This document shows positions 8,942 to 32,678 of a stretch of 33,596 nucleotides of DNA, piece after piece (the first letter of the stretch is position 1; the number at the start of each line of letters is the position of its first letter). The notes below the pieces were generated by a model. The model was not told the DNA's origin and searched no databases. It saw only the letters and a program-made list of their open reading frames with translations. The stretch is from Oscillospiraceae bacterium (lineage in GTDB: Bacteria > Bacillota > Clostridia > Oscillospirales > Oscillospiraceae): NCBI GenBank assembly GCA_017538965.1, contig JAFYHU010000009.1:1-33596 (forward strand), read 5' to 3'. The position numbers and the translations under genes were made by a program.

Positions 8942-8982
8942 CAGGCCACCTACTCATATAGATTTATTTTCTATAGTGTCCC

Positions 8983-9011
8983 AGTATATGTCATAAAAGC
9001 AGATTTATCAA
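8983..9011 (-). promoter_or_regulatory. Promoter of the glycan operon
   Basis: On the minus strand TTGATA (9006-9011) and TATACT (8983-8988) are separated by exactly 17 nt. The gene start is about 40 nt further on. The 250-nt gap to the divergent gene at 9192 holds nothing else I can support. Confidence 0.65.
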
Positions 9012-9191
9012 GATGATTTATGTCCTAAGACTCGTACAGATTTACATAATATTTCTGTTTTTTTGGAATACGACTCCAAAGTGTTTTCTGCTGCTGCGAA
9101 AAGTTCATATTTCGGCTCTTGCGCCTGTCCGTAAAACATGGTAAGCTATAAGCAGGGTATCACCCGAATATGATCTTTTGGAGGAATTGCC

Positions 9192-9845: not shown

Positions 9846-9869
9846 TTTTTTCTCCTTTTTCAATTCTTG

Positions 9870-9895
9870 AAAAGCGCGCCAGACGGCGCGCTTTT
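9870..9895 (-). terminator. Intrinsic terminator after the LRR protein gene
   Basis: A perfect 11-bp stem, AAAAGCGCGCC with GGCGCGCTTTT, closes a 4-nt loop (AGAC). It lies 5 nt past the stop codon of the LRR gene and just upstream of the rqcP start. Its stem ends in T4 on both strands. Confidence 0.75.
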
Positions 9896-9899
9896 GCTT

Positions 9900-11651
9900 T
9901 TACGGATAAATGATTTCGCAGTCGGGAAGCGCTTCCCGCAGCTCGTCAAGCTGCTCAATAAGGACAGGGTTTCCGGACAGATTCAGTTTTTTCAGAGTCT
10001 GAAGTTTTTTCAGACCTGTCACTGCAGCTATCATATTATCGCTGAGATTCAGTTCTTCCAGCATCGTCAGCGAAGACAGAGACAGTATATCTGAAATCTG
10101 ATTTCCGGACAGATTCAGTCTTACCAGCGTATAACGGGACGGACTGATCTCAAATTGATAGAGGCTCGTAATCTCGTTGTTGCTCAGATCCAGCTCTTCC
10201 AGCCTGGTCATGCGATCCAGCCCGCTGAGTACCGTAATGTTGCTGTAAGGGAAGGAAAGAATCTTTTCATCGCTCTGTACGGTATGACCGGCGAAATCCA
10301 CTTCATAGATCAGTTCGGAGGTCAGAATCGTACAGCCCGGGATCTCGGATTTCAAAGCACTGACTGTCTTCTCACTCAATCCAGTATTATTCTGGAGATC
10401 CAGCGTCTGTAAGCTTTTCAGCGTATGCAATTCCGGAAGATCCGTATCGCTGATTCCGGTATTTCTCAGATACAGTGATTTCAGGCCGCTCAGTTTTCCA
10501 AGCCCGGAGAAGATACTGATAAGATTGCCGTTCAGATATAGTTCTTCCAAGGATTTTACTTCCCCGACCGCCGTCGTGTCTGATACCAGATTATCGGATG
10601 CATCCAGCTTTTTCAACGACGAGAGCCCGATCAAAGGGCGCAGATCGCTGATGCTGTTGTCGGAAACTACCAGCTCCTCCAGTTTCGGGAGATTCATCAG
10701 CGGACGCAGATCGATAATTTCATTATTGCTTAAATTCAATGTACGTAGTTCTGAAAAGCCATCGAGCGCCGTCAGATCCCGGATCTTTTTTCCCGAAAGA
10801 TTCAGATCTGTCACATCGGCATGAAAACAGTTTCCCCCATACAGCACCTCTTCCGTCTCTTCGTTGGTATAGCGAATCGCGCAGAAAGGAAGCGCTTCTG
10901 TCAATATTTCCAGGCAGTCTGATGTCACTTCCGTCTCTGTCAGACTCAGGGTATTCAGATTGCTGAGCACAGCCAAAGCTCGGCAATCGCGAATCGGATT
11001 TCCGTCCAGTTTCAAAGTGCGCAATTCTCTCAGTGCTGCCAGCGCATCCACGCTGCTCAGTTGATTTCCGCTGAGATCCAATTCGTCCAATCCGCCGAGC
11101 GCGGATAACGCGGAAATATCCGAAATCCGATTGTTTTTCAGAGAAAGGCTGTTCAGGGAATACAACGTCGTAATTTCGGAAAGCTGTTCATTCGTAATCC
11201 CTTTTTCATCCAGAACTACATCTTTGGTATCCTCTTCGAATTCACACCCGGCAACAACGATCAATTTTGCTTTTTGTTCCTTGCTGCGTTTCTGTTCGAT
11301 AGACAGGATACGACTGGCGACAGCCGGGTCGGACGTATTCATCTTTCGAAGAGTTTCTAGCGCTTTCGGATAATTGCCAAGCGCCTCATAGCAGTCGGCC
11401 ATCAGCATCAGACCTTCCGTATTACTTTCCTTTTCCATGCCGCGGCGTAGGTATAGCAGTGCAGACTCATAATCACCTGCTGCATAGCACTCCCGCGCTT
11501 TTTGAGTGTACTCTTTGGGTCCTGATGTTCCGTTGTAATGCAGCAAAGAAACAGCAACAACAGCTAGAAGAACAAGCAACACTGCAATAAGGATCAGATA
11601 TCTTTGATCCTTATTGCCCGTTTTTTTCAGTTTACTGCTTTCTATCTTCAC
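9900..11651 (-). CDS. Membrane-anchored TPR and leucine-rich-repeat protein (internalin-like)
   Basis: The 583-residue protein has a basic N-terminus and one hydrophobic helix (about 18-38), probably an uncleaved signal anchor. Two TPR-like helical pairs follow (about 47-110), and then from about 150 to the end a long array of ~22-residue leucine-rich repeats of the type LxxLxLSxNxIxDIxxL. LRRs of this SDS22/internalin type serve protein or ligand binding, so an extracytoplasmic adhesion or scaffold role is likely. There is no LPXTG motif. The start is a GTG at 11651 with a weak purine-rich site (GAGA) upstream. It lies 20 nt downstream of a membrane protein gene and shares its promoter. Confidence 0.8.
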   Translation of the reverse strand: MKIESSKLKKTGNKDQRYLILIAVLLVLLAVVAVSLLHYNGTSGPKEYTQKARECYAAGDYESALLYLRRGMEKESNTEGLMLMADCYEALGNYPKALETLRKMNTSDPAVASRILSIEQKRSKEQKAKLIVVAGCEFEEDTKDVVLDEKGITNEQLSEITTLYSLNSLSLKNNRISDISALSALGGLDELDLSGNQLSSVDALAALRELRTLKLDGNPIRDCRALAVLSNLNTLSLTETEVTSDCLEILTEALPFCAIRYTNEETEEVLYGGNCFHADVTDLNLSGKKIRDLTALDGFSELRTLNLSNNEIIDLRPLMNLPKLEELVVSDNSISDLRPLIGLSSLKKLDASDNLVSDTTAVGEVKSLEELYLNGNLISIFSGLGKLSGLKSLYLRNTGISDTDLPELHTLKSLQTLDLQNNTGLSEKTVSALKSEIPGCTILTSELIYEVDFAGHTVQSDEKILSFPYSNITVLSGLDRMTRLEELDLSNNEITSLYQFEISPSRYTLVRLNLSGNQISDILSLSSLTMLEELNLSDNMIAAVTGLKKLQTLKKLNLSGNPVLIEQLDELREALPDCEIIYP

Positions 11652-11671
11652 CTGGTGCAGTCTCTTTCAGA

Positions 11672-12391
11672 TTATGGATTGTTTTTGTCTGTCTTTTCTG
11701 TGTCTTCCGAATTCGGTTCTGCATCAGGGCTTTCTCCTGCGGGCGGGGTTGTCTCCGTTGCAGGCGGAGCAGGTTCCGAATCCGGCTTCTCAGGTTTAAT
11801 GACCTTCGGTGCTTTTATTTTCGGCAGATTCACGGTCTCTTCCGTCACGGTTTTTTTTATGGACAGAGAGAGAAATAGAAGTCCCAACATAGCACAGAGC
11901 ACACTCATTTCCTGCATGCCGGCTGTAAAGCTGACCGGATTGGCAGTATCTCTCAGAGCAGCAAGATCTTCGACAAAAATGTGATACAGAAAGGGCAGGC
12001 CGAACAGCGGAACCAGAAACCATTTGGTTTTCAGGATACCGAAAACCGTGCAAAAGTACAGGGCTAGGACAACAATGTAAAGCAGGATGCACAGAATGGT
12101 GTGAAGCCGGCTTTCAAAGCCAAGAGATTTGATGATAAAAAAAACAATACCGAGAAAAACCGGGATGACCGTAACCCACAACGCACGTTTGCCGAAAAGC
12201 CATACAAACAGCATCATCAGCAGTGCACTTAGAATCGGCAGGCCGATCTGAAAAGCCAAATAGTTTCGATCCGTCCACAGTCCCCAGCAGCCGATGATTC
12301 GAAAAACAATAGACAGGCTCAACAGAATCAACATTGCTTCTACGCCAAAAGAGTCCCGTTCAACATGAAACCTGACTTTCTCTCTCGTCAA
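11672..12391 (-). CDS. Membrane protein with Pro/Glu-rich C-terminal tail, unknown function
   Basis: This 239-residue protein has about six hydrophobic segments between residues 17 and 180. A charged tail of ~55 residues rich in Pro, Glu, Thr and Lys follows (KIKAPKVIKPEKP and onward). I do not recognise a family. The frame starts with TTG at 12391 and there is no clear ribosome site; ATG20 is the next candidate but would cut into the first helix. It is the first gene of a two-gene unit with the TPR-LRR protein, so the two may form a complex at the membrane. Confidence 0.6.
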   Translation of the reverse strand: MTREKVRFHVERDSFGVEAMLILLSLSIVFRIIGCWGLWTDRNYLAFQIGLPILSALLMMLFVWLFGKRALWVTVIPVFLGIVFFIIKSLGFESRLHTILCILLYIVVLALYFCTVFGILKTKWFLVPLFGLPFLYHIFVEDLAALRDTANPVSFTAGMQEMSVLCAMLGLLFLSLSIKKTVTEETVNLPKIKAPKVIKPEKPDSEPAPPATETTPPAGESPDAEPNSEDTEKTDKNNP

Positions 12392-12429
12392 CCCGATCGC
12401 CCCGCATTCAGTTTACATAAAGTTAATTG

Positions 12430-12458
12430 ATTATAGCATATCCCTTGTCCGACTGCAA
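12430..12458 (-). promoter_or_regulatory. Promoter of the membrane protein - LRR unit
   Basis: TTGCAG (12453-12458), a 17-nt spacer and TATAAT (12430-12435) lie on the minus strand. The TGC before the -10 makes it an extended -10. This is one of the strongest promoters of the window by eye. Confidence 0.7.
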
Positions 12459-12477
12459 GAAAAAGCAGGATGGAACA

Positions 12478-12503
12478 TAAAAAACCACCCCGGAAGGGGT
12501 GGT
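12478..12503 (-). terminator. Intrinsic terminator of the cstA-like operon
   Basis: A perfect 9-bp stem pairs 12482-12490 with 12495-12503 around a GGAA/TTCC loop. On the minus strand it is followed by a run of six T. It lies about 20 nt after the transporter's stop codon. Confidence 0.85.
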
Positions 12504-21402: not shown

Positions 21403-22329
21403 ATGAAAAACAACAAATTCCATATCTTCCTGCTCTTTGTCTGCGCTCTTCTCTGGGGAACTACCTTTGTCGCTCAGAGCATCGGCGCGGATTACGTCGG
21501 CGCCTTCACCTATCTCGCCGGGCGCAGCTGGATCGCCGTGGCATTTCTGACGCCGGTCGTCCATCTGATGGACTGGTTCTTTGACCGGCGCGGCATTGAC
21601 AACCGACGTCCGAAAAACGCGGCAGAGCGCAGGTATCTGATCATCGCCGGCTGCATCAGCGGCTTCATGCTCTGCTCGGCCAGCGCCGCCCAGCAGATCG
21701 GCATCGCTTACACCACGGCCTCCAAGGCGGGCTTCATCACCGCGCTCTATGTGGTCATTGTGCCGATTCTGAGCATCGTCATCAGGAAGCGTCCGACTCC
21801 TCAGATCTGGTTCTGCGTGCTGCTGGCGCTGGTCGGCATGTATCTGCTCTGTATGACCGCCGAAAGTCTGCACCTGGAGATCGGAGATGCCTGGGAACTT
21901 GCCTGCGCCTTTCTGTTCGCCGTTGAGATTCTGATTCTCTTCTATTACAGCTCCCGCGTGGACGCGGTACGCCTGTCGCGGATGCAGTTTCTCGTCGTCG
22001 CGATTCTCAGCACCGTGCTGATGTTTCTGACGGAGAAACCCACTCTTGAGGCGTTTCGCCTCGGCCTCCCGGCCATGCTGTACGCCGGCATCTTCTCCAG
22101 CGGGATTGCCTATACGCTGCAGATCTTCGGGCAGGAAGACGTCAATCCTACCGTCGCCAGTCTCGTCATGAGTCTGGAAAGCGTCTTCAGCGCGATCACC
22201 GGCTGGCTGATTCTCGGGGAACGATTGTCTCTGCGCGAGTTTGCCGGCTGCGCGCTGATGTTCCTGGCCATCATCCTCGCCCAGATCGATCTGCGGGTCC
22301 TTTTCAGAAACAAAAAGCCTTCTCCGTAA
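21403..22329 (+). CDS. DMT-superfamily EamA-type transporter
   Basis: The 308-residue membrane protein has ten hydrophobic helices arranged as two EamA repeats. The first repeat opens with FALLWGTTFVAQ-like sequence (ALLWGTTFVAQS), and the second closes with the typical SLESVFSAITGWLILGERLS. EamA proteins export or import small metabolites such as amino acids and nucleosides. The frame extends to a TTG inside the tRNA terminator; the ATG at 21403 with AAGG 11 nt upstream is the better start. Its stop codon lies in the loop of its own terminator. Confidence 0.88.
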   Translation: MKNNKFHIFLLFVCALLWGTTFVAQSIGADYVGAFTYLAGRSWIAVAFLTPVVHLMDWFFDRRGIDNRRPKNAAERRYLIIAGCISGFMLCSASAAQQIGIAYTTASKAGFITALYVVIVPILSIVIRKRPTPQIWFCVLLALVGMYLLCMTAESLHLEIGDAWELACAFLFAVEILILFYYSSRVDAVRLSRMQFLVVAILSTVLMFLTEKPTLEAFRLGLPAMLYAGIFSSGIAYTLQIFGQEDVNPTVASLVMSLESVFSAITGWLILGERLSLREFAGCALMFLAIILAQIDLRVLFRNKKPSP

Positions 22330-22347
22330 GCAGGAGAAGGTTTTTTT
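22318..22347. terminator. Bidirectional terminator overlapping the EamA stop codon
   Basis: An 8-bp stem, CCTTCTCC (22318-22325) with GGAGAAGG (22333-22340), has the TAA stop in its loop. Seven T follow on the plus strand. On the minus strand CTTTTTG follows, so it may also end the glycyl radical operon, whose last stop is about 120 nt away. Confidence 0.85.
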
Positions 22348-22463: not shown

Positions 22464-23408
22464 TTATTGTCTTCCGACGCCGGAGATTTCAGCGCGAAGG
22501 CCGCTTTCTTCAAACAGCATCCGGATTTCCTCCGTCTTTTCCGGCGCCGGGGCCTCAAAGCGTTCCTGACTGCCGCCGATGTGCCGGGCTTTTGACACGC
22601 CCAGACTGTGGTAGGGCAGGAGCGTTACCCGTTCGATCCGGTTCCGGCGGTAAAAGGCCACTGTCCGTTCCATCAGACCGATGTCATCGTTCAGACCGGC
22701 GATCAGGGGCATCCGCATATGGATTTTCTCCCTTGTCATCTCGTTTTCCGCAAGCATGACCAGGTTTTCCAGAATCCGATCGTTGTCAAGGCCGGTCAGT
22801 TCACGGTGACGCTCGCGGTCGAGGCACTTCATGTCATAAAGAATCTCGGTTGCGTTCGGCATCTCCGCGAGTCTCAGAAGGGCCTCCCCGTCGCCGCAGC
22901 CGGAGGTGTCCAGGCAGACGCGGATGCCGTCCCGCTGTGCAAGTTCGGTCAGCGCGAGCGCAAAGTCCGCGTGCATCAGCAGTTCCCCGCCGCTGATCGT
23001 CATGCCGCCGCCGGTGTTCTCGTAAAAAGAGACGTCCTTGCGGACTTCGCGCATCACTTCTTCCGCCGTCATTTTCTTTCCGACCTGCCGCAGCCCTTCG
23101 GCATAGCAGCCTTCGACGCAGCGCATACAGCAGTCGCAGCGGCTGCGATCGATATCGATCTCTTTATCCGCATTGACGAACATCGCCTGCCGCGGGCAGT
23201 GCTGCAGGCAGAAACCGCAGTGAATGCAGCTGTTCGGCATGCGGATAATCTGCACTTCCGATGCAATCAGCTCTGGGTTGTGACACCAGCGGCAGTGCAG
23301 GGGGCAGCCCTTGAGGAAGACCGTGGTGCGGATGCCCGGTCCGTCATCGGTGGAGAACTTCTGAATGCCGCCGATCAGGGCAGCGCTCTGGGCAAAGGTC
23401 TCGTCCAT
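22464..23408 (-). CDS. Glycyl radical enzyme activase (radical SAM, PflA-like)
   Basis: This 314-residue protein installs the glycyl radical on the enzyme encoded just upstream. It has the radical-SAM cluster motif CX3CX2C (Cys35, Cys39, Cys42 in CPLHCRWC). An inserted ferredoxin-like domain carries two 4Fe-4S motifs (Cys61/64/67/71 and Cys91/94/97/101), as in activases of dehydratase-type glycyl radical enzymes rather than the short PflA. GGGMTISGGE (about 133-142) is the SAM-binding region. It starts 6 nt after the glycyl radical enzyme gene and is the last gene of the operon. Oxygen sensitivity implies a strict anaerobe or anaerobic growth. Confidence 0.93.
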   Translation of the reverse strand: MDETFAQSAALIGGIQKFSTDDGPGIRTTVFLKGCPLHCRWCHNPELIASEVQIIRMPNSCIHCGFCLQHCPRQAMFVNADKEIDIDRSRCDCCMRCVEGCYAEGLRQVGKKMTAEEVMREVRKDVSFYENTGGGMTISGGELLMHADFALALTELAQRDGIRVCLDTSGCGDGEALLRLAEMPNATEILYDMKCLDRERHRELTGLDNDRILENLVMLAENEMTREKIHMRMPLIAGLNDDIGLMERTVAFYRRNRIERVTLLPYHSLGVSKARHIGGSQERFEAPAPEKTEEIRMLFEESGLRAEISGVGRQ

Positions 23409-23414
23409 GCTGTC

Positions 23415-25793
23415 TCAGACCGCCTCTCGGAAGTGCGCGGTGCGGTAGATGATCGAGTTCTGGGCGTCGCGGTCCAGCTCGGTAAAGTAGGCCATGTAAC
23501 CTGCCACCCGGACCATGAGGCCGCGGTAGTTCTCGGGATGTTCCTGCGCTTTTCGCAGGGTTTCGTCATCGACAACGTTGATCTGAATATGCTCGCCGCC
23601 GTACTGGAAGAAGGTGCGGATCACGCCTTCGATGGCCTGCAGGCCTTTCTCCCCGCTGACTCCCTGCGGGTCAAAACGGATATTGAACAGGGCGCCGTCA
23701 TGGAAATTCTCCATGCCGGTCGAGGCAACCGACTTGACCGTGGCCGTGGGGCCCTTGATATCCCGACCCATCATGGGGGATGCGTTATCGCAGAAAGCCT
23801 CGCCGGCAAGCCGCCCGTCGGGGGTCGCGCCGCAGACCGCGCCGTGGGAGACGTTGACGGTCTGAGAGAGGTTGGAGAAGGAATAATATCCGCCGCGGGC
23901 ATCTTTCCAGGACTGCACATTCGAAGCGATGAACTGGATCATCTCACGATAGACGGCGTCGGCATGTTCATCGTCGTTGCCGAACTTCGCCGGCTTGTTG
24001 ATCAGCAGCTGACGGATGCGCTCGTCGCCTTCGAAATTCCGGTCCAGAACGCGGATCAGCTCATCCATGCTGAGATCGTGATCCTCAAAGACGCACTTTT
24101 CAATGGCAACCAGCGAGTCGGCCAGGTTGGCTGCACCCGTTACAAACATCCCTGCGGTCGAGTACTTCGCTCCGCCTTCCTGGACGGAACGGCCGGACTC
24201 CACGCAGCCTTTCGTCACCATGGAAGCAAAAATCACGGGATAGCGCGTGGCATGGTAGGGCTGCATTCTGTTATAGCCGATCCGAATCTTGTCGTAGAAA
24301 TAAAGCAGCTGCTTCTTGACCGCCGCCTTCAGTTCCTCAATGTCCCGGAAGTCCCGCGGGTCGCCGGTCTGCAGGCCCATGAGGTCACCGGTAGCGGGGT
24401 CGATGCCGTTGTGCAGCGTGAGCTCGAGCACCTTCGGGGCATTCACATAGCCCGCGTCGGGCGAGCCGTCCGTTGTGCCGCCGCCCGGGCCGGGCTGAAT
24501 GCAGCCGACAATGGTCCAGTCGCGCGCTTCCTCCAGAGAGCAGCCTTTGCCCAGGGACATTTTCATCGCCGCTTCGTCGTTGAAGAAGCCGGGATTGGCC
24601 ATGCCTGCCTGCACCATTTCACAGCCCCTGCGAATCAGCGCCTCGGGCGTGTTCTTCCACACACGGACCGCAAGAACGGGCTGGGTCGTCTGCATTTCGG
24701 CCGCCGCATCCAGGCAGAGGTAGGAAAGATCGTTCGTGGCATCCCGGCCGTCCGGCGTCTGACCGCCGACAATCAGAATCTGCCACATGGGGTAGCCGGC
24801 GAAGGAAGAGGCATACCAGCGATCACGCACTTCATAGACCTCGCAGGCCTTCAGATACAGGCATTCCAGCAATTCCAGCGCGCGGCCGGCCGGCAGCGTC
24901 CGGTCGATGATGACATCTTTTTCATAGAAGGGCCAGAGATACTGGTCAAAGCGGCCGAAGCCGCAGGCCGTCGTGCAGACCTCAATGTGGAAGTATACAT
25001 GCACAAACCAGATCAGCTGCAGTGCCTGCCAGAAGGTCTCCGGCGGGTTTTCGGGAACAACGCGGCAGTTTTCGGCGATCTGCAGAAGTTCGGCTCTCCG
25101 CTGGGCGTCTTCACAGACGGAAGCCTGACGTTCCGCCTCGTCCGCCATCCGGTGCGCATAGGTGATCAGGCCTTCGCACTGGATGATGCAGGCGTTCCAG
25201 AAATCGATCTTCCGCTGGTCCTCCGGGCTCTGGCTCTGCGTCGCGGAAATGTTGGAACGGCACTCGTCCATATAGCCGCGCAGGCCGACCCGGAGCAGCT
25301 TTTCATGGTCGCAGGTGGTTTCGCCCGAGACACCGTTTCGCAGGCCGACGGAGATCAGGTCCTCCCGCCGCGCCTTTTCAATGTCCGGCGGCAGAACCCG
25401 GCAGGCTTCATCTTCCATGGACCGGCCGATCCAGTACTCCTTCAGGGTGCGGACAATCTGTTCCCGGTCTTCCGGCGCGATGTCATAGGGGTCGCACTTC
25501 CGGACCGGAAATTCGTCAATGTCCTTCAGATAGAAGTTTTCCGCCGATTGAAACTCGGGATGCAGATTTGCCCCGCGGTAGCGGTTGGTCGGCGTACCGA
25601 CAATCAGCTCGTCTTCCATCATGAGAGTGGTCATATGCTCCATGATGTAGCGGACAACCTCCGCCCGGAACACCGGAACCGCATCGCCGGCAAAACGCTT
25701 GTAAGCCTCCGTCTGCAGAACCAGCCGTTCGGCGGTAATGCAGGGTCGGGAGGCGAAATACTTTTCTCTCATCCTGCGGACTCTGTCGGTCAT
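23415..25793 (-). CDS. Glycyl radical enzyme of unknown substrate (PFL-like family)
   Basis: The 792-residue protein is a full-length member of the glycyl radical family. The radical site is RVAGY (762-766, Gly765) close to the C-terminus. The thiyl cysteine is Cys431 in VGCIQPGPGGG. Most characterised dehydratases, lyases and decarboxylases have Glu two residues after this cysteine (GCVEP); here it is Gln433. Pyruvate formate-lyase has a Cys-Cys pair, which is absent. Another conserved segment is FGRFDQYLWPFY (279-290). AAGGAG lies seven nt before the ATG. It lies 20 nt after an aldo/keto reductase gene and 6 nt before its activase, in an operon with a lysine riboswitch. No microcompartment shell genes are nearby. 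I cannot assign the substrate; a C-O, C-N or C-C cleavage giving a carbonyl product would suit the reductase. Confidence 0.9.
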   Translation of the reverse strand: MTDRVRRMREKYFASRPCITAERLVLQTEAYKRFAGDAVPVFRAEVVRYIMEHMTTLMMEDELIVGTPTNRYRGANLHPEFQSAENFYLKDIDEFPVRKCDPYDIAPEDREQIVRTLKEYWIGRSMEDEACRVLPPDIEKARREDLISVGLRNGVSGETTCDHEKLLRVGLRGYMDECRSNISATQSQSPEDQRKIDFWNACIIQCEGLITYAHRMADEAERQASVCEDAQRRAELLQIAENCRVVPENPPETFWQALQLIWFVHVYFHIEVCTTACGFGRFDQYLWPFYEKDVIIDRTLPAGRALELLECLYLKACEVYEVRDRWYASSFAGYPMWQILIVGGQTPDGRDATNDLSYLCLDAAAEMQTTQPVLAVRVWKNTPEALIRRGCEMVQAGMANPGFFNDEAAMKMSLGKGCSLEEARDWTIVGCIQPGPGGGTTDGSPDAGYVNAPKVLELTLHNGIDPATGDLMGLQTGDPRDFRDIEELKAAVKKQLLYFYDKIRIGYNRMQPYHATRYPVIFASMVTKGCVESGRSVQEGGAKYSTAGMFVTGAANLADSLVAIEKCVFEDHDLSMDELIRVLDRNFEGDERIRQLLINKPAKFGNDDEHADAVYREMIQFIASNVQSWKDARGGYYSFSNLSQTVNVSHGAVCGATPDGRLAGEAFCDNASPMMGRDIKGPTATVKSVASTGMENFHDGALFNIRFDPQGVSGEKGLQAIEGVIRTFFQYGGEHIQINVVDDETLRKAQEHPENYRGLMVRVAGYMAYFTELDRDAQNSIIYRTAHFREAV

Positions 25794-25813
25794 GGTGATG
25801 CTCCTTAGAGAGG

Positions 25814-26695
25814 TCAGTATTTTTCCATGGGGACCTTTTCGGTGGGGGCGGGGAAAGAACGGGACAGCCGGTCGATATCTTCTTCCGTCAGGCGGATATT
25901 CCGGACGGCCCAGTTTTCTTCGATATGTTCAAAGCCGACCGCCTTCGGCATGGCGGCCATGTCCTCGAGCCGGAGCACAAAGGCCAGCAGCACCTGCACG
26001 ATCGAACAGCCGATCCTCCCGGCAACGGCCCGGACGTTTTCATCGCGAACCATTTTCTCCTTGGACACGCGATCCTGCGTTACCAGAGCCCCGGCCTGCC
26101 CTACCGGGCAGTATGCCATCAGAGGGAGCCGTCTCTCGCGCTGCCAGGGGAGCAGATCGTATTCGATGCCCCGGCTGCCCAGGTTGTACAGAATCTGGTT
26201 CACGCTGCAGCGGCTGCCGTCCGGTACGCGCCACAGATCTTCCAGATCCTGCACATCGAAGTTCGACACACCCCAGTTCCGGATTTTCCCCGCTGCCTTC
26301 AATTCCTCCATGCAGCCGGCAACTTCCGCAAGATCCGTCTCTCCCCGCCAGTGGAGCAGGTACAGATCGACATACTCGGTTCCCAGCAGAGCCAGGGAAC
26401 GGTTCAGACTGGAAAAGATGCGCCTGCGGTTGGCGTTTTCCGGCAGCACTTTCGTTACGATAAACTGGTCCTCGCGGCGATAGCCTTTCAAAGCCTGCCC
26501 GACCAACAGTTCCGATTTGCCGTCGGCATACATTTCGGCGGAATCGATCAGACGAAAACCGAGATCAAACCCATGCCGCAGCCCGGCGATTTCCCGGGCT
26601 GCTTTTTCATCGTCTTCCGCCATCTGCCAGGTCCCCTGCCCCAGGCGGGGCATGGGGGTACCGTCCGGCAGAAGCAGGGTTTCCTGAAACGGCAT
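25814..26695 (-). CDS. Aldo/keto reductase
   Basis: The 293-residue protein has the complete AKR tetrad: Asp51, Tyr56, Lys82 and His115, in the contexts LIDSAEMY, IVTKVL and LLHWRG. It is a soluble TIM-barrel NAD(P)H-dependent reductase of aldehydes or ketones. The MPRLGQGTW N-terminus is typical. It begins 10 nt after the transporter gene with a poor ribosome site, so it probably relies on coupled translation. Its place between an importer and a glycyl radical enzyme suggests that it reduces the carbonyl product of that enzyme, or prepares its hydroxylated substrate; either order is inference. Confidence 0.9.
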   Translation of the reverse strand: MPFQETLLLPDGTPMPRLGQGTWQMAEDDEKAAREIAGLRHGFDLGFRLIDSAEMYADGKSELLVGQALKGYRREDQFIVTKVLPENANRRRIFSSLNRSLALLGTEYVDLYLLHWRGETDLAEVAGCMEELKAAGKIRNWGVSNFDVQDLEDLWRVPDGSRCSVNQILYNLGSRGIEYDLLPWQRERRLPLMAYCPVGQAGALVTQDRVSKEKMVRDENVRAVAGRIGCSIVQVLLAFVLRLEDMAAMPKAVGFEHIEENWAVRNIRLTEEDIDRLSRSFPAPTEKVPMEKY

Positions 26696-26705
26696 CGGAG
26701 AAGGC

Positions 26706-28262
26706 TCAGGCAGCGGCTTCCGCTTCGTCGCCGGTGCCGTACTTCTTGACGGCGGCGCGGTGCAGAACGATCATGGCCGCAACCAGCAGCGCGGCCGAGA
26801 CAATCAGGCCGAGAATGCCGTTGCCGGTGATGCCGATGAGAATATAGCCGACCAGGCTGCATGCCGCAATTGTGAGGGCATAGGGCATCTGGCTGCCGAC
26901 GTGGTCGAGGTGGTTGCAGCTTGCGCCGGTACTCGAGAGAATCGTCGTATCCGAAATGGGCGAGCAGTGGTCGCCGAAGATGGAACCGGCCAGGGTAGCC
27001 GCCAGCGAGGCGACGACCAGGTTCGGGGCGATGGCCTGGGCTACCGGGGCGACGATCGGAAGCAGAATGCCGAAGGTACCCCAGGACGTACCGGTGGAGA
27101 AGCTCAGGAAGGCCGCGAAGAGGAAGACCATCATCGGAAGAATCGCGCCGGGAACGCCCAGGGTCTGGAACAGATTGCTGACATACTCCGGCGTACCGAG
27201 CAGCTCACGGCAGACGCCGCCGATGGCCCAGGCCAGAAGCAGGATGACGCCGGCGGTGATCATCGGCTCCATGCCCTTGATGATGCCGGAGAAGAACTCG
27301 TGGAAGCTCATGATCTTGCGCGGGACATAGAGCAGCAGCGAGAAGAGAATCGCCGCGAAGGAGCCCCAGGTCAGAGCCTGACCCGAAACGCTGTTGCCGA
27401 GCGAAGCGCCGAACTGGCGGGCAACGGTGGGATCGTCGCTCCAGTATCCGCCGATGTACATCATGGAGAGAATCGAAACGATCACCAGCACCAGAATCGG
27501 GAGAAGCATATCCCAGAGGGTCGCGTTGGAAGGGGTCTCCATGTTTTCATAATCCTGATCGGCCGTAGCAGAGAGGTCGCCCTTGCGCGCCTTCAGCTCA
27601 AAGCGGTACATGGAGCCGAAGTCCCAGGAAAAGACGCAGATGAGCACAACCATCAGCAGGCAGAGCAGCGCGTACAGATTGTACGGCACCATGGCCAGAA
27701 AGCCGCTGATGCCCGAACTGAAGACGCCGGTGTCCACCATGTAGCCGCCGACCGCAGCGCCCCAGGTCGAGATGGGAACCAGAATGCAGATCGGAGCGGA
27801 GGTCGAGTCAATCAGATAGGCGAGTTTCGGACGGCTGACCCGATAGCGGTCGGAAACCGGCTTCATAACCGAGCCGACCGTCAGGGCATTGAAATAGTCG
27901 TCAATGAAGATCAGGCAGCCCAGCAGGGTGGTCAGCAGGGTTGACTGGGTCTTGCTCCTGATGACCTTGGACGCCCAGCGTCCGTAGGCCTTGGCGCCGC
28001 CGGAGGCGTTAATGAGATAGACCAGCGAGCCGAGCAGGAAGCAGAAGAGCATGATGTACCAGTCCGCACGCCCGAGAATCAGCTCGAACATGACATCGAC
28101 CGGAGCCACCAGCGGGTTCATGCCGCCGGCGAAGGCATAGATGAGAGTACCCGAGAGGACGCCGGCCACCAGAGAGAAGATGACTTCCTTGGTGATCAGC
28201 GCCAGCACGATCGCCACGATCGGCGGTACCAGAGACCATACACCTACGTAAACAGATTCCAT
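26706..28262 (-). CDS. NhaC-family transporter under lysine riboswitch control (LysW-like, probable lysine transporter)
   Basis: The 518-residue membrane protein has about a dozen helices and the NhaC-family pattern: WSLVPPIVAIVLALITKEV at the start, FIDDYFNALTVGSVMKPV, and STGTSWGTFGILLP with FGDHCSPISDTTILSS near the end. NhaC relatives include Na+/H+ antiporters and Na+-coupled organic-substrate exchangers. Those controlled by lysine riboswitches have been predicted to carry lysine (named LysW in comparative genomics), which fits here. An ATG four codons earlier (28274) sits directly on the ribosome site AAAGG. The ATG at 28262, about 11 nt after it, is my choice. It heads the glycyl radical operon. 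Confidence 0.85.
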   Translation of the reverse strand: MESVYVGVWSLVPPIVAIVLALITKEVIFSLVAGVLSGTLIYAFAGGMNPLVAPVDVMFELILGRADWYIMLFCFLLGSLVYLINASGGAKAYGRWASKVIRSKTQSTLLTTLLGCLIFIDDYFNALTVGSVMKPVSDRYRVSRPKLAYLIDSTSAPICILVPISTWGAAVGGYMVDTGVFSSGISGFLAMVPYNLYALLCLLMVVLICVFSWDFGSMYRFELKARKGDLSATADQDYENMETPSNATLWDMLLPILVLVIVSILSMMYIGGYWSDDPTVARQFGASLGNSVSGQALTWGSFAAILFSLLLYVPRKIMSFHEFFSGIIKGMEPMITAGVILLLAWAIGGVCRELLGTPEYVSNLFQTLGVPGAILPMMVFLFAAFLSFSTGTSWGTFGILLPIVAPVAQAIAPNLVVASLAATLAGSIFGDHCSPISDTTILSSTGASCNHLDHVGSQMPYALTIAACSLVGYILIGITGNGILGLIVSAALLVAAMIVLHRAAVKKYGTGDEAEAAA

Positions 28263-28280
28263 AGTTTGCCACATCCTTTT

Positions 28281-28320
28281 TCAAAATCAAAAGCAGCCGG
28301 TTGCGCGTCGCACCGGCTGC
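28281..28320 (-). terminator. Intrinsic terminator of the riboswitch (expression platform)
   Basis: On the minus strand GCAGCCGGT (28320-28312) pairs with ACCGGCTGC (28301-28293) around a 10-nt loop and is followed by TTTTGATTTTG. It lies between the aptamer and the transporter gene, just before the ribosome site. Its 3' arm sequence CGGCTGC recurs inside the aptamer (28504-28498), so that aptamer strand could pair with the terminator's 5' arm as an antiterminator when lysine is absent. Confidence 0.85.
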
Positions 28321-28365
28321 CTGAAACTTCATATGACAGATGCAGGACCATAAGGGGCCTTCTCC

Positions 28366-28541
28366 GTAATAATGAGCTCTCCGCAAACGATGCGACAGTC
28401 ATATGCATGTTCTGCATATGCCCAGGTCGGATTTCCGCTTCATCCGCCTTCGGCGTACGCCCCTTTTCCGTCGGCCGGAGATTGCTGGTCTCCTTTCGCA
28501 GCCGCGGTACTCTTGACAATACGCGCCTCTACTTTTATTAC
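28366..28541 (-). ncRNA. Lysine riboswitch (L-box) aptamer
   Basis: The 176-nt minus-strand leader has the L-box layout. P1 pairs GTAATAA (28541-28535) with TTATTAC (28372-28366). The conserved core AGAGGCGCG and AAGAGTA follows, and then GGGGCGTACGCCGAAGG, ACCTGG, GACTGTC and a closing GGAGAGCTC. The internal hairpins are a P2 tip (GGAG...CTCC), P3 (CGGAT...ATCCG), a perfect 8-bp P4 (CATATGCA...TGCATATG) and P5 (CGCA...TGCG), giving the five-way junction of this class. Lysine binding normally favours the terminator and switches the operon off. Identification is by recalled consensus and structure; a covariance-model hit would confirm it. Confidence 0.92.
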
Positions 28542-28548
28542 AGGTAAA

Positions 28549-28577
28549 ATTATAACAAACCGAAAAGTTCTTGACAA
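28549..28577 (-). promoter_or_regulatory. Promoter of the lysine riboswitch operon
   Basis: TTGTCA (28572-28577) and a perfect TATAAT (28549-28554) are 17 nt apart on the minus strand. Transcription should begin near 28542, exactly at the base of riboswitch helix P1. Confidence 0.82.
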
Positions 28578-28636: not shown

Positions 28637-29911
28637 TCAGGCCCAGACGATCCAGATGATCAGGGCGCCTGTTACAACCGCGATAAGCGTAAAGGGAATG
28701 CCGATGCGGATGAAGTCGCCGGTGGAAACCTTGTAGCCTTCCTTCTGCAGAATGCCGATGCCGGCAATATTGGCGGAAGCCCCGACCGGAGTAATGTTGC
28801 CGCCCAGCGTCGCGCCGATCAGCAATCCAAAAGCAAACAGATACGGCTTGATCCCCATCTGCGCGGCGATGCCGCTGACAACCGGAAGCATGGTGGCGAC
28901 ATAGGGAATGTTGTCGATAAAAGCGCTGAGCAGCACCGAAATCCCGACGATCAGCACATAGGTAAACAGGACGGAGCCTCCGCCGATCCGGATGAACAGC
29001 GCCGCGATGGCATCAATGACGCCGGCCCGGTTGATGCCCTCGATCACCATGAACAGACCTGCCAGCAGGATCAGCGTCTTATAATCAACCGCTTTCAGGG
29101 TTTCTTTTACGAGACCTGCCGATTTTGTCCGGAGCATTTCGTACAGAATGCCGATCACGGCAAGGCCGCAGCAGATCATGCCGTTGGTGAGCTCGGGCTT
29201 GTTTTGAAACTGGGAAGCGACAATCAGCAGCAGAACCGTTCCGAGCATCAGCGCCGTCGGGACATAGTCGGCGACAACCGTCTTCACCTCGACGCTTACC
29301 CGTTCCTTTTCCTTCCGAAAGAGATACAGCAGGACGGGAATGGTCAGCAGCGCGCCGCCCTCCACCGCGAAGGCGATGCCGGGCCGTCCCTGAAACCAGA
29401 AGAAATCGTTGAAGCTCATGTTCATGTAGCCCGCCAGCAGGATCGAGGTGGTGTCCCCGACCAGCGTTGCCGCTCCCTGCAGATTGCTGGACACGGCGAT
29501 GGCGATGATCAGCGGGACAGGGTTGGTCTTCAGCTGTCTGGCCACGGCAAGTCCGACGGGCGCCACCATCAGAACGGTCGCGACATTGTCCACGAAGGCC
29601 GAAATGACCCCCGAAAACACCGACAGCACCACCGCCGCCCACTGGATATTCGGAACCTTCTGCAGCAGTTTTTCCGCCATGCGGCCGGGCATTTTGCTCC
29701 GGATAAACAGTTCAACCGTCGCCATGGTGCCCGCGAGCATCATCAGCACATTCCAGTTGATTGCGCCGGCGGCCTCCGCCGGCCGCAGAATGCCGAGCAG
29801 CAGGAACACCAGGGCGGTGACCGGCGCTATGATCCAGCGGAGGTCTGCAAAGGCCAGCAGCAGGATATACATGACGACAAAAATCGCCAGTGCCAAAAAC
29901 ATCGTGTTCAT
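28637..29911 (-). CDS. ArsB/NhaD-type (IT superfamily) permease
   Basis: The 424-residue protein has about eleven hydrophobic helices arranged as two repeats. It shows the ion-transporter-superfamily motifs SAFVDNVATVLMVAPV and SAFIDNIPYVATMLPV in equivalent places of the two halves, and GATLGGNITPVGASANI near the end. Members transport arsenite, Na+/H+, citrate or other dicarboxylates; the substrate cannot be told here. It starts 6 nt after the serine hydrolase gene, so it belongs to that operon. I see no clear terminator between its stop and the riboswitch promoter, so read-through is possible. Confidence 0.85.
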   Translation of the reverse strand: MNTMFLALAIFVVMYILLLAFADLRWIIAPVTALVFLLLGILRPAEAAGAINWNVLMMLAGTMATVELFIRSKMPGRMAEKLLQKVPNIQWAAVVLSVFSGVISAFVDNVATVLMVAPVGLAVARQLKTNPVPLIIAIAVSSNLQGAATLVGDTTSILLAGYMNMSFNDFFWFQGRPGIAFAVEGGALLTIPVLLYLFRKEKERVSVEVKTVVADYVPTALMLGTVLLLIVASQFQNKPELTNGMICCGLAVIGILYEMLRTKSAGLVKETLKAVDYKTLILLAGLFMVIEGINRAGVIDAIAALFIRIGGGSVLFTYVLIVGISVLLSAFIDNIPYVATMLPVVSGIAAQMGIKPYLFAFGLLIGATLGGNITPVGASANIAGIGILQKEGYKVSTGDFIRIGIPFTLIAVVTGALIIWIVWA

Positions 29912-29917
29912 AGGCTT

Positions 29918-31114
29918 TCAGTGCCGCGGGCTGTAACGGTCGGACTCCGCATTCCGGGGAGACCGTTCTTCCGTCCGGCGTTTTCTTCCTTTCTGATGAT
30001 TCCGGCTGAGAAACGTGACGGAACCGCCGATCGCGCTCAGCACCGCAATGCCGACAACGATCACCGCGGTCGGGACTTTGCGGGCCCCCTCTTCCACGGG
30101 GACCGGTTCTTCCGGCAGCGGTGCGGCAGCGGGCGCAGGATCGTCGGGCACTTCGGCCGCAGGAGCAGGCGCCGCCGTTTCTTCCGGAAGAGCCGGCTCG
30201 GTGCTTACAGGCTCCGGAGCCGGCGTCTCTTCGATCTGCTTTTCGTCCAGCTGCAGGGAATAGTCCGCCAGCCAGGCGCCTACCTCTGCAATTCGTTTCT
30301 GATACTCGCCGATGTTGCGGGTCATCACAACGACAATGATCGGCGTGGGGGTGTAGATAATCGCGGCGCAGTGGTTATTGTTCTTGGAGATGTGCGTCTC
30401 TTCAAAGGCGCCGTACTTCTGGGCAACGCCGTAGTCTTTCAGGGTCGGATCCGAATTGAAGTACTCGTACGGCTGGGCCTGCAGAAGATAATCGATTACA
30501 TGAGGAAAGGCTTCGTCTCCGCCCTCATACAGGGTCTTCATCACCTGGGTCATATAGCGGGCCGTATAGTAGCTGACATCCAGGAAATCCTGAGAGAAGT
30601 ACTCCTCCGGCAGGTCGGTGAACTTTTCCGTCATGTCACTGCATTTGCCGTTGTAGGTGCCGCCCAGATAGCTCACCATGGCGTGTCCGCTGTCGTTGTT
30701 GGAGTTGACCAGGGCCGTGGATTCCAGGTATTCCAGCGTGGTCCCGAGGACAATGCTTTCCGGCGTCAGCTCGCCGGCCGCTTCCTTCTCCGCCATCAGC
30801 ATCGAGACCGGGACTTTGTAGAGGCTGGCGGAGTACATCCAGATATCCGGGTGATAGAACCAGCAGTCGCTGGTTCCCGTATAGCAGAAGCCGACCGAGA
30901 CGTCCTGCCATTTTCCGTTCAGGTCATGTTCCTCGACAAAGCCGTCCATCCAGCGGTTCAGCGCTTCCGCATCGATGATGCCGCTGTCGTTTTCGAGATT
31001 GAGATCCGATTGTGCGCCGGTATTCTCGGCTTCCTCGGCAAAGGCATCTGCGGAAAGCAGGAGCAGCAGGGCCAGCAGAAGGCATGTGAAATTTTTAACT
31101 GTCTGTTTTTTCAT
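29918..31114 (-). CDS. Exported, membrane-tethered serine hydrolase (class A beta-lactamase/PBP-like fold)
   Basis: The 398-residue protein has a signal sequence (about 8-26). A SxxK-type catalytic domain follows, with SLYK (97-100), SNN (138-140, equivalent of SDN) and KYG (233-235, in the KTG position). A Pro/Glu/Ala-rich linker (about 295-345), a single membrane helix (348-370) and a strongly basic cytoplasmic tail complete it. The fold is that of penicillin-interacting serine hydrolases; an esterase, peptidase or peptidoglycan role is as likely as any beta-lactamase activity. Its ATG lies inside the end of the diguanylate cyclase gene (20-nt overlap), and the permease follows after 6 nt, so the three are translationally coupled. 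Confidence 0.8.
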   Translation of the reverse strand: MKKQTVKNFTCLLLALLLLLSADAFAEEAENTGAQSDLNLENDSGIIDAEALNRWMDGFVEEHDLNGKWQDVSVGFCYTGTSDCWFYHPDIWMYSASLYKVPVSMLMAEKEAAGELTPESIVLGTTLEYLESTALVNSNNDSGHAMVSYLGGTYNGKCSDMTEKFTDLPEEYFSQDFLDVSYYTARYMTQVMKTLYEGGDEAFPHVIDYLLQAQPYEYFNSDPTLKDYGVAQKYGAFEETHISKNNNHCAAIIYTPTPIIVVVMTRNIGEYQKRIAEVGAWLADYSLQLDEKQIEETPAPEPVSTEPALPEETAAPAPAAEVPDDPAPAAAPLPEEPVPVEEGARKVPTAVIVVGIAVLSAIGGSVTFLSRNHQKGRKRRTEERSPRNAESDRYSPRH

Positions 31115-32678
31115 TTGTGAGTTTTTGATTTTCTGTATCTCCGGTATTCTTTACGGTTCCTGCGGTCTGTCCTGCGTTTTCCCCGGGCTTCGGCCGGTAG
31201 AAGGTATAGCCGCAGCGGCCGTTGCGTTTGGTCTCATACAGGGCTTCGTCGGCATATTCCATCAGGCGGTCGGGATCGGGAACAACGGCTCCGTGGGCGA
31301 TGCCGACGCTGACGGAGGCCGGCGGAAGACCGTCGTCGGTGTTCTGCAGCTCTTCATTGATTCTGCGGATGCGCAGGGCAATCTGCTCTTCATTCCGGAC
31401 ATCGGCCCATGTCAGGATGACGACGAACTCATCACCGCCGATCCGACAGATATAGTCGACCGCGCGAAAATTATGCTGAATGGCCGCGGCCGTCTTCTGC
31501 AGAACCCGGTCGCCCGTTTCATGCCCGTACGTGTCGTTGACGGTCTTGAAATTGTCGATATCAAAGAACAGCAGAAAACCCGAGCGGGGATCGACGATGC
31601 TCATGATGCGCTCATAGCCAGCGCGGTTGTAGAGACCGGTCAGGGCATCGTGCGTCGCCTTGTATTGTTCGCGCAGAAGCGTGTCATGCTCGGCGGTGTT
31701 GTCCCGGATGCTCATGAACCAGCCGATGGGGCGGTCCCGGTTGTCGGTTACGCTGTGCTTTTCCAGCAGATAGCTCCGCGCGCCTTCCCAGGAGGAAACA
31801 TCCTTCCGGATGATCATGTCCGGCTCGATCTCCTCCAGGGGGCCGAGCTGCTTCTCGAGGACGGTGCGGACAGGGTCATAGTTGTCTTCGACGACCCCGA
31901 CGAGCCTGCGGCCGGGCTTGTTGGCCCAGATGCAGCGGTCAGCCGTGTCAAAGAAGAAGAGAGACTCCGGCAGCTCCGAGGCGATGTTTGCCAGCATGCT
32001 GTCCAGCAGACGCATCGGGCGGTAATTGAGGGCGAGATAATACACCAGCAGGCCGAAAACGCCGAAGCCGATCATCGAGCGGTCGATCGGAGAGCTGGAG
32101 AAGATGTAGACGCTCTCCCAGATCGTTGTAAAGATCATGGCCGCGAGAATGACGAGGTAGCGCTCGGCCTCAATGCGCGGGCAGCGGATCGACTTGATGA
32201 TAAAAAGGAGGATGACGACGAACAGGATCCCGTAGTCCACCGCGCGGTGAAAGGTCTGCCCGGCATAGGGAATCAGGGCGTAATACACACGGCCGCCGAC
32301 GACCATCTCCTGCTGCCCGAAAGCATGGCCGAAAATAGGGTTCAGGAGGAGCTGCACGGCGTCCACGAGCAGAAGCAGGTCCGCAAGGGTCTGCAGCTTC
32401 TGATTCGGCGCCGTGGGAAAGCAATATGCCCTGGTAAAGCGGGTCACGGCAAACATGACCATATCCATGCCGAGAAAATAGATATAGCGGCCGACGGTGA
32501 CCAGCCGCAGGTCAGAGGAAAGGATAATGATCAGATTTCCGGCCATCGGCGGAATCAACGAGGCGAGCAGCAGCGCGACCGAGGGGCCGAGCGCTTTCCC
32601 GGACCGGGCTGCTTTCACGGTGCAGACGCTCAGCGCAACGATCAATATGGAAAAAATCACGGAGAACGCATATCTCAT
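31095..32678 (-). CDS. Diguanylate cyclase with 7TM sensor and PAS domain
   Basis: The 527-residue protein has a seven-helix N-terminal membrane region of the histidine-kinase-7TM kind (about 3-215) and then a PAS-like domain (about 235-335). A GGDEF domain follows with DALTGLYNR (344-352) and an intact GGDEF motif (414-418). The inhibitory I-site RAVD (405-408) lies five residues before it, so product feedback is expected. It should make c-di-GMP in response to a membrane or small-ligand signal. AGGA lies seven nt before the ATG at 32678. It is the first gene of a unit with a serine hydrolase and a permease. Confidence 0.92.
   Translation of the reverse strand: MRYAFSVIFSILIVALSVCTVKAARSGKALGPSVALLLASLIPPMAGNLIIILSSDLRLVTVGRYIYFLGMDMVMFAVTRFTRAYCFPTAPNQKLQTLADLLLLVDAVQLLLNPIFGHAFGQQEMVVGGRVYYALIPYAGQTFHRAVDYGILFVVILLFIIKSIRCPRIEAERYLVILAAMIFTTIWESVYIFSSSPIDRSMIGFGVFGLLVYYLALNYRPMRLLDSMLANIASELPESLFFFDTADRCIWANKPGRRLVGVVEDNYDPVRTVLEKQLGPLEEIEPDMIIRKDVSSWEGARSYLLEKHSVTDNRDRPIGWFMSIRDNTAEHDTLLREQYKATHDALTGLYNRAGYERIMSIVDPRSGFLLFFDIDNFKTVNDTYGHETGDRVLQKTAAAIQHNFRAVDYICRIGGDEFVVILTWADVRNEEQIALRIRRINEELQNTDDGLPPASVSVGIAHGAVVPDPDRLMEYADEALYETKRNGRCGYTFYRPKPGENAGQTAGTVKNTGDTENQKLTNEKTDS

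Follow-up and report, generated by a model that had tools for sequence, protein, structure and literature searches.

The window, by which we mean the whole 33,596-nt stretch of DNA that was analysed, contains a tight operon in which a lysine riboswitch precedes a glycyl radical enzyme (GRE) from a subfamily to which no substrate is assigned. Relatives of this enzyme appear, from comparison of genomes, to have recruited the same riboswitch class in several lineages, apparently several times. We favour the explanation that the operon serves lysine-repressed salvage or acquisition, and we give this mechanism as a whole a probability of roughly 45%. A broader claim is more tentative, and we regard it as rather doubtful: that a new GRE subfamily relies on Gln, where the catalytic Glu would stand, to cleave a lysine derivative and return lysine or its skeleton to the cell, that it is the first case of a radical enzyme under repression by a lysine riboswitch, and that this control arose several times independently.

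Organization of the operon

All parts of the operon lie on the minus strand, in the order promoter, lysine riboswitch, terminator, NhaC transporter, aldo/keto reductase (AKR), GRE and activase. The sigma-70-like promoter (28549..28577) has the form TTGTCA-17-TATAAT, with TG before the second hexamer and 11 of 12 matches; promoter-like sites in the region numbered four, against a shuffle mean of 2.1. The Rfam lysine model (RF00168), proposed in the initial annotation as a check on the leader, gave a clear, full-length match (model positions 1-182) to 28366..28539, scoring 72.8 bits where the gathering threshold is 30, with an E-value of 2.3e-17. Downstream, a stem-loop at 28291..28322 (stem, -19.9 kcal/mol) and the U-rich tract after it make up an intrinsic terminator; this stem (28322-28291) is absent from the terminator list of the pattern scan.

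The first gene encodes an NhaC-family, LysW-like transporter (26706..28274; PF03553), whose true start is likely the ATG at 28262 based on comparison with the leader of locus L006. It is followed by the AKR (25814..26695; PF00248), the GRE (23415..25793; PF02901 and PF01228) and the radical SAM activase (22464..23408), which has a CPLHCRWC motif, Fe-S domains, matches to Radical_SAM and Fer4-type domains, and a TIGR02494 score of 298.6 bits (cut-off 174.35). Based on gene coordinates, the intergenic gaps are 10, 20 and 6 nt; the gene order and spacing given in the initial annotation agree with the coordinates, promoter, riboswitch and domain matches. Its statement that the operon has no internal terminator describes the layout correctly, save for one weak site of 6 pairs on the same strand (27084-27070), and terminator-like sites occur at chance level in the region scan (6 found, shuffle mean 5.9). 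The pattern scan placed another terminator-like stem-loop, with 8 pairs, 3' of the activase (22318..22340). Riboswitch and operon are kept together in loci L005, L006 and L007. The host of the operon is a gut-type anaerobe.

The GRE subfamily and its active site

The GRE carries the markers of its class, namely PFL-like and Gly_radical domains, an active-site Cys and a radical Gly in RVxGY. Alignment identified Cys431, Gln433, Glu158 and Asp446, with the glycyl radical at Gly765 in RVAGY; the nearest sister subfamily has His, Glu and Val at the positions of Glu158, Gln433 and Asp446. Within the subfamily, Cys431, Gln433 and Asp446 are each present in 87/87 rows, Glu158 in 85/86, and Gly765 in all 84 rows that cover it. 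The Glu two residues past the active-site Cys serves as the base in GRE eliminases. This eliminase marker, found in GDH, PDH, CutC and HplG, is absent from the window GRE, which has Gln433 instead; position 433 is Glu in all five solved relatives displayed. A standard elimination from an amino alcohol sits awkwardly with replacement of the catalytic Glu by Gln.

When the GRE was compared with NCBIfam, no substrate equivalog model reached its cut-off, and the nearest family model, TIGR01774 (PFL2-3, a mixed subfamily), fell below it at 662.6 against 678.2 bits. Identity with HypD (NF043068, 578.8 bits, cut-off 1100) and with CutC (TIGR04394, 528.6 bits, cut-off 1050) was rejected, and scores were far under the cut-offs of the models for sulfopropanediol dehydratases and decarboxylases. 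No NCBIfam model named for HplG was among the GRE matches, and the reductase reached no NCBIfam equivalog cut-off. These alignments and model scores place the GRE in a subfamily with an altered active site and with no substrate assigned.

The best full-length solved match was HplG (578 bits, 3-786), a hydroxyproline lyase whose substrate is a hydroxylated amino acid, as described in the available part of the source (PMC11528403). The likeness is one of sequence, and the substrate of HplG is trans-4-hydroxy-D-proline; HplG keeps Glu at the Gln433 position and lacks the Glu158/Asp446 pattern. We know of no HplG under a lysine riboswitch. The B12-independent glycerol/diol dehydratases (PDB 1r8w, 5i2a) also matched over nearly the full length (541-570 bits), but they have His at 158, Glu at 433 and, by entry name, a diol substrate, whereas the window GRE has Glu158 and Gln433. 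CutC (PDB 9f3w, 5fau) catalyzes C-N elimination from an amino alcohol; the Asp of GDTC in 9f3w aligns with Glu158, whereas at position 433 CutC has Glu. HypD (PDB 6vxc), whose model is the one rejected above, is a GRE of hydroxylated amino acid salvage in which a separate reductase acts next.

The leader and the direction of control

The 5' strand of aptamer helix P5 (UGUCGCAUCG, 28388..28397, minus strand) is the proposed half of an antiterminator, because it can pair with 28306-28315 in the arm and loop of the terminator at -15.2 kcal/mol. This pairing, proposed as UGUCGCAUC with the partner GGUGYGAC, is kept in the leaders of the window, L005, L006 and L007, and it persists even though the terminator arms differ between the window/L005 and L006/L007 pairs. 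Pairings as good arose in 3 of 1000 shuffles for the window and in 11, 11 and 0 of 1000 for the other three leaders. Folding of the growing transcript gave, with exceptions, a high antiterminator probability before the 3' arm of the terminator is made; in the longest window transcript folded, antiterminator (0.53) and terminator (0.38) have similar odds. An alternative antiterminator, in which CGGCUGC near P2 pairs with GCAGCCG (-12.6 kcal/mol), was set aside because it was not listed for L005.

In the G664 leader, the 3' strand of P1 complements the terminator arm (GCUAUC/GAUAGC), and among the 23 aptamers compared, the closest to that of G664 belong to a lysA-type operon and to a dapA gene. 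From this leader anatomy we infer that the window-type leaders (window, L005, L006, L007), the L009 leader and the G664 leader look like lysine-OFF expression platforms. OFF-like anatomy thus occurs in three leader types, and the leaders of L027, G604 and G416 were assigned no direction; in G416, a 10-bp match rich in A and U links the end of P1 to the segment immediately preceding the terminator (-6.8 kcal/mol). Across all nine GRE leaders, the best downstream pairing of the P1 3' strand was only -3.0 to -6.8 kcal/mol. A lysine riboswitch also precedes the lysine fermentation gene kce in two GRE-carrying genomes, G397 and G411 (NF052387, 413 and 414 bits, cut-off 382), and there the P1 3' strand pairs downstream at -19.8 and -23.7 kcal/mol. 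The two other lysine riboswitches in the window genome sit 5' of amino-acid ABC binding proteins.

Occurrence across genomes

The GRE subfamily was found in 79 of 349 Anaerovoracaceae genomes searched and is present in Oscillospiraceae too. Of 91 genomes that carry the GRE, 9 have a lysine riboswitch 5' of its operon (six of 24 in one set and three of 67 in another, to which stricter filters were applied), a lower bound since several GRE contigs start near the gene. Four layouts occur: riboswitch-NhaC-AKR-GRE-activase in the window, L005, L006 and L007, and with another NhaC in L009; riboswitch-activase-GRE-NhaC in L027 (Mobilibacterium timonense); riboswitch-GRE-activase-NhaC in G604; and riboswitch-GRE-activase-APC permease in G416 and G664. 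The riboswitch therefore stands directly before the activase in L027 and directly before the GRE in G604, G416 and G664.

On an 85-row GRE tree, the riboswitch label requires six changes, at least five of them forced by supported branches, suggesting recruitment in several lineages; the tree is a quick one with SH-aLRT support only, and the six changes may include losses. It left out two distant GREs (that of L029 and the second copy of L020), the divergent first GRE of L141, and rows below 600 aa. Consistent separation of the GRE genes from the transporter and riboswitch, which the initial annotation had named as contrary evidence, was found in part: no riboswitch was detected in cis at 67 of 76 GRE loci surveyed, so control by lysine recurs as a variant but is not the norm. 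L029, L032 and L082 were outside this survey, as were loci where the best GRE fell below 60% identity, and the GRE matches taken with their flanks are a subset without lower-scoring and truncated matches and some second copies.

Neighbouring genes

Among well-flanked loci, an AraC-type regulator occurs at 0/8 riboswitch loci and 38/50 others, where "AraC" means similarity to a single regulator (that of L008); the Fisher tests on locus counts disregard kinship among loci. Its presence at most non-riboswitch loci suggests induction by substrate; Emergencia timonensis and Oscillibacter sp. 1-3 are of this AraC type. Upstream, the G604 locus carries a repair protein of the Ada/AlkA type that bears an AraC helix-turn-helix and is not of the L008 kind. 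AKR and SDR reductases never share a cluster (AKR at 15 of 58 loci, SDR at 15, neither at 28), neither is nearby at 3 of 8 well-flanked riboswitch loci, and a KARI homologue accompanies the GRE at four more distant loci. By this distribution, reductases of three folds (AKR, SDR, KARI) serve as alternative partners of the GRE. The activase is near the GRE at 9/9 riboswitch loci and 46/50 well-flanked others.

An NhaC or APC transporter is present at 9/9 riboswitch loci and 31/50 others; three different NhaC types and one APC permease are in use among the riboswitch loci. Stand-alone NhaC genes under riboswitch control in G301 and G414 share 39-40% identity with the window NhaC. By its PF03553 and RF00168 matches the window gene would count as LysW, a name given, in the available part of the source, to NhaC-superfamily transporter genes behind lysine riboswitches (PMC5584792). 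Those genes encode transporters, whereas the window adds AKR, GRE and activase in the same apparent transcription unit.

No dapA over the cut-off was found in the window lineage or in G414. Lysine auxotrophy was nevertheless ruled out as a general cause, because dapA exceeds the cut-off in four of nine riboswitch genomes (G398, G416, G604, G664) and 36 of 76 genomes lack it with or without a riboswitch; the test covered 76 of the 91 genomes, leaving out G301 and more distant ones.

Discussion

According to the explanation we favour, the operon would be part of the regulon for lysine acquisition. At low lysine, the aptamer would be empty and its P5 strand would pair with the terminator's 5' arm, allowing transcription of the operon; bound lysine would lock P5, whereupon the terminator would form and switch the operon off. 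The NhaC transporter would import a cationic amino acid, either lysine itself or one of its derivatives. The activase would place the radical on Gly765, from which the GRE would pass it to Cys431, and the thiyl radical could then initiate elimination from a vicinal amino alcohol resembling lysine, with Glu158 holding its ammonium group and the AKR reducing the carbonyl product. More speculatively, as regards both what the substrate is and what each active-site residue does, the chemistry that would best fit lysine repression is a C-N cleavage freeing lysine from an N6-(2-hydroxyalkyl)-lysine, for which a hypusine-like compound or a reduced sugar-lysine adduct would be candidates. Counting against this explanation are the 67 of 76 loci without a riboswitch in cis, with mostly AraC-type control, as well as dapA in four of nine riboswitch genomes and the 28 of 58 loci, among them 3 of 8 well-flanked riboswitch loci, with neither AKR nor SDR. 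So do the three leaders to which no direction was assigned (L027, G604 and G416, the last with its A-U-rich match), the similar odds of antiterminator and terminator in the longest window transcript folded, and the Gln at position 433.

It is rather unlikely, in our estimate, that the substrate consumed by the GRE is instead 5-hydroxylysine or a different hydroxylated analogue of lysine, with loss of ammonia or water to a carbonyl that the reductase converts to an alcohol, as an electron sink or for clearance of an antimetabolite. Lysine would then turn the operon off since the analogue matters only while lysine uptake is open. The AraC-type regulators at 38 of 50 non-riboswitch loci, partner reductases of three folds, transporters of amino-acid families (NhaC, APC), an acidic residue aligned with the Asp of choline lyase, and HplG as the closest solved relative by full-length score all agree with such a reaction, but it offers no simple reason for repeated recruitment of lysine end-product repression, and our literature search, in which subscription journals were thinly covered, found no paper on a glycyl radical enzyme and hydroxylysine. 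We think it improbable that no lysine chemistry is involved and that lysine is a proxy for amino-acid supply, the GRE substrate being a diol, a choline-like compound or another small molecule. The mixed nature of TIGR01774 and the 67 loci without a detected riboswitch would suit this, whereas the repeated rise of the same riboswitch class, the NhaC or APC transporter at every riboswitch locus (31/50 elsewhere) and the failure to reach any NCBIfam substrate equivalog cut-off do not.

The initial annotation had suggested a pathway that makes, salvages or consumes lysine or a relative; the riboswitch is real and the operon tight, and consumption is the part that now looks unlikely, because the window-type and two other leader types are OFF-like and the kce leaders are clearly different. 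To our knowledge, lysine offers no vicinal leaving group for any known GRE elimination, which also counts against degradation of lysine itself by an operon turned on by lysine. Lysine riboswitches that activate lysine-degradation genes are described in the available part of PMC5584792, a riboswitch precedes kce in the GRE-carrying G397 and G411, and three GRE leaders have no assigned direction. The kal/kce genes resemble the GRE operon in having the same aptamer class before lysine-related metabolism in anaerobes; as far as that part of the source goes, they are lysine-activated (PMC5584792). Their leader differs, and some GRE leaders look lysine-repressed. Since the long P1 3' strand complement of the kce leaders is missing from all nine GRE leaders, we consider lysine-induced degradation very unlikely. 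Least probable of all is the alternative raised in the initial annotation, that the LysW-type transporter is the only gene the riboswitch serves and that reductase, GRE and activase are unrelated passengers. In its favour, the operons of the window, L005-L007 and L009 begin with NhaC, and in G301 and G414 NhaC genes stand alone behind a riboswitch; we rejected this alternative because the riboswitch directly precedes the GRE or the activase in four genomes, and the use of three NhaC types and an APC permease also speaks against it.

The initial annotation knew of no GRE under a lysine riboswitch, and our search, with the same thin coverage of subscription journals, likewise found no paper linking the two or describing this system. 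GREs are responsible for much of the unusual chemistry that proceeds anaerobically in the gut, and new ones often come without a clue to their substrate; here, a riboswitch of known ligand gives such a clue, and does so in several lineages. The operon ties an uncharacterised radical reaction to the lysine supply of these bacteria, and the change from Glu to Gln raises the question of whether GRE eliminations require that base. If lysine repression is true, radical chemistry that yields lysine from one of its derivatives in food, feed or host tissue would be a new way of salvaging an amino acid.

The operon and its genome

On the minus strand of the window, a promoter-like site recognized by sequence pattern (TTGTCA-17-TATAAT) is followed by a lysine riboswitch, a terminator located by leader analysis between the riboswitch and the first gene, and four genes encoding, in order, an NhaC-type transporter, an aldo/keto reductase (AKR), a glycyl radical enzyme (GRE) and the radical SAM activase of the GRE. 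This order, together with gaps of 10, 20 and 6 nt, had been described in the initial annotation and was borne out; the aptamer identified there matched the full Rfam Lysine covariance model (RF00168) at 72.8 bits against a cut-off of 30. The window corresponds to contig C79 in an assembly of 3.39 Mb and 91 contigs (93.9% complete), in which the window GRE is the single PFL-like GRE found and two further lysine riboswitches each lie 5′ of a family-3 amino-acid ABC binding protein gene. Upstream of the riboswitch on the same strand (28637-32678) are genes for a CitMHS/ArsB-type transporter, a Beta-lactamase2-domain protein and a 7TM diguanylate cyclase.

Recurrence in other genomes

A scan of genome contigs yielded 26 loci, 24 of which encode GREs that are ≥67% identical. 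The riboswitch-transporter-reductase-radical enzyme synteny, which the initial annotation had proposed looking for, recurs as an operon of the same four genes behind the riboswitch in loci L005, L006 and L007. Locus L009 has the layout switch-NhaC-AKR-GRE-activase with an NhaC of another type, and L027 of Mobilibacterium timonense has switch-activase-GRE-NhaC without AKR. Within Anaerovoracaceae, the family of the M. timonense genome, the GRE was found in 79 of 349 genomes searched (E ≤1e-250). We searched 67 of these 79 and 24 earlier genomes for lysine riboswitches; the resulting 91 GRE-carrying genomes (G301 counted with the 47% sister GRE only) yielded 62 riboswitches (33 and 29), and nine of the 62 precede a GRE operon. 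The aptamer lies about 190, 150 and 160 nt from the GRE start in genomes G604, G416 and G664, with the leader alone between them. Nine is a lower bound, because filters were stricter in the 67-genome search and some GRE contigs begin near the gene. The lysine riboswitch-GRE operon arose in several lineages: on a quick tree of 85 GRE rows, the riboswitch label needs six changes, five of them forced by supported branches.

Locus L020 also encodes, at 8569-12495, a second and only distantly related GRE (about 28% identity) together with a separate activase. This pair lies 1 kb 3′ of NhaC, which itself comes after the Gln-type GRE and activase. GRE copies in L022 (G410:C141) and G716:C61 carry a two-ORF split or one in-frame stop. 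Just upstream of the GRE in L016, L021 and L026 are a pilin and class C sortase cluster, with families scanned in L016 and assigned by clustering in the other two, and a run of tRNA genes.

Predicted switch direction

As modeled by folding without ligand, the leaders of the window lineage (the window, L005, L006 and L007), L009 and G664 look like OFF switches, in which lysine would repress. In the window lineage, the P5 5′ strand UGUCGCAUC is predicted to pair with the 5′ arm and loop of the terminator (GGUGYGAC), with energies of -12.6 to -15.2 kcal/mol, and the pairing is retained despite different terminator arms in the window/L005 and L006/L007 pairs; 3, 11, 11 and 0 per 1000 shuffles were equally good (window, L005, L006 and L007). 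This alternative helix reaches a probability of 0.78-0.92 after its second strand is made, in transcripts ending before the complete terminator 3′ arm; two bases earlier the values are 0.96, 0.05, 0.90 and 0.68 in the same order, and in L005 there is a late drop to 0.30. With the whole terminator present, the helix stands at 0.15 in the window and ≤0.01 in the others, and eight bases further on in the window it stands at 0.53 versus 0.38 for the terminator. L009 has a P5 3′-strand alternative with a probability of 0.60-0.77, then 0.00.

The P1 3′ strand of G664 (GCUAUC) is complementary to a terminator arm (GAUAGC, -6.2 kcal/mol). The other three GRE leaders (L027, G604 and G416) showed no clear direction; in G416, the P1 end and the stretch preceding the terminator share an A-U-rich match of 10 bp (-6.8 kcal/mol). 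Among 23 aptamers compared, those nearest to the G664 aptamer precede a lysA-type operon in G604 (0.64, 64% identity; lysA named by eye) and dapA in G397 (0.60). The aptamer 5′ of the G664 GRE is a divergent variant (L097:4924-5085 and L150) with a TGGTCAATAGCCA arm and, in L097, a TAGTTG core.

In L054 and L055 (genomes G411 and G397), a lysine riboswitch lies 5′ of the lysine-fermentation gene kce (NF052387, over cut-off), and the leader contains a long complement of the P1 3′ strand. The P1 3′ strand pairs downstream at -19.8 (G397) and -23.7 kcal/mol (G411) in these leaders, whereas its best downstream pairing in the nine GRE leaders is -3.0 to -6.8 kcal/mol. Based on these predictions, the kce riboswitches look like lysine-ON switches; PMC5584792 describes lysine-fermentation genes behind lysine riboswitches as lysine-activated.

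GRE active site

The GRE subfamily has a changed active site and lacks a substrate assignment; none of the NCBIfam substrate models scored the window GRE over its cut-off. In an 87-row alignment (≥52% identity to the window GRE, whose numbering is used), Gln433 and Asp446 occur in all rows and Glu158 in 85 of the 86 covering rows, with L141's first GRE having Ala instead. The 47% sister GRE, L032, has His, Glu and Val at positions 158, 433 and 446. Glu at position 433 serves as general base in GRE eliminations, and all five solved relatives compared (HplG, glycerol dehydratase, diol dehydratase, 9rco and a choline lyase) have Glu there instead of Gln; in place of Glu158, His is found in glycerol dehydratase, diol dehydratase and 9rco, and an aligned Asp in the choline lyase. 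Two acids gained and one lost near the substrate would fit a cationic substrate.

Neighboring genes

Among 76 loci with a GRE of ≥60% identity, 58 have 2.5-kb flanks on both sides. Within these 58, and with kinship ignored, an AraC/cupin regulator (Pfam) lies within five genes in 0/8 riboswitch loci versus 38/50 others, and an NhaC or APC transporter is nearby in 8/8 versus 31/50. Regardless of flanks, all nine riboswitch loci have such a transporter; the best NCBIfam model for the APC type is NF008094/PRK10836, which we take to be the LysP model (547-548 bits, below the cut-off of 735).

The well-flanked loci have an AKR (15), an SDR (15) or neither (28), never both. In a clade at 61-63% identity (L137-L140), a ketol-acid reductoisomerase homologue lies 3′ of the activase in 4/4 loci; its usual active-site stretches appear altered by eye, and a new role as a reductase is possible. 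The occurrence of reductases of three folds next to one GRE points to reduction of a carbonyl or imine product, yet roughly half of the loci have no reductase in the vicinity. A recurrent row 3′ of the activase in L103, L105, L108 and L109 (M20 amidohydrolase, CoA-disulfide-reductase-like flavoprotein, C_GCAxxG_C_C redox protein and SDR, with families scanned for representatives) may extend the pathway. DUF5714 proteins with a biotin/lipoyl-type domain are also encoded 3′ of the activase (L099:3068-3979 and L118:1301-2296).

Lysine economy and proposed function

The window's own genome has lysA, and a search of its 94% complete assembly did not find DHDPS/dapA, suggesting that part of the diaminopimelate route was lost or that the assembly has gaps; DHDPS was likewise not found in the L005 genome (G394). 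No dapA over cut-off was found in the four window-lineage genomes or in G414. The other four riboswitch genomes have dapA over cut-off, and in three of them (G398, G664 and G604) another lysine riboswitch lies 5′ of dapA or a dapA-containing operon. Lysine auxotrophy may favor the arrangement; we rejected it as the explanation because four of the nine riboswitch genomes have dapA.

The operon parts are of known kinds. As far as literature searches reach, the regulatory link between riboswitch and GRE is new, and the GRE reaction is probably new. The main rival reading assigns the GRE operon to hydroxylysine use or clearance. We favor C-N cleavage, by which the GRE would free lysine from an N6-(2-hydroxyalkyl)-lysine. 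Lysine likely turns the operon off, and the operon would therefore serve lysine acquisition or salvage.
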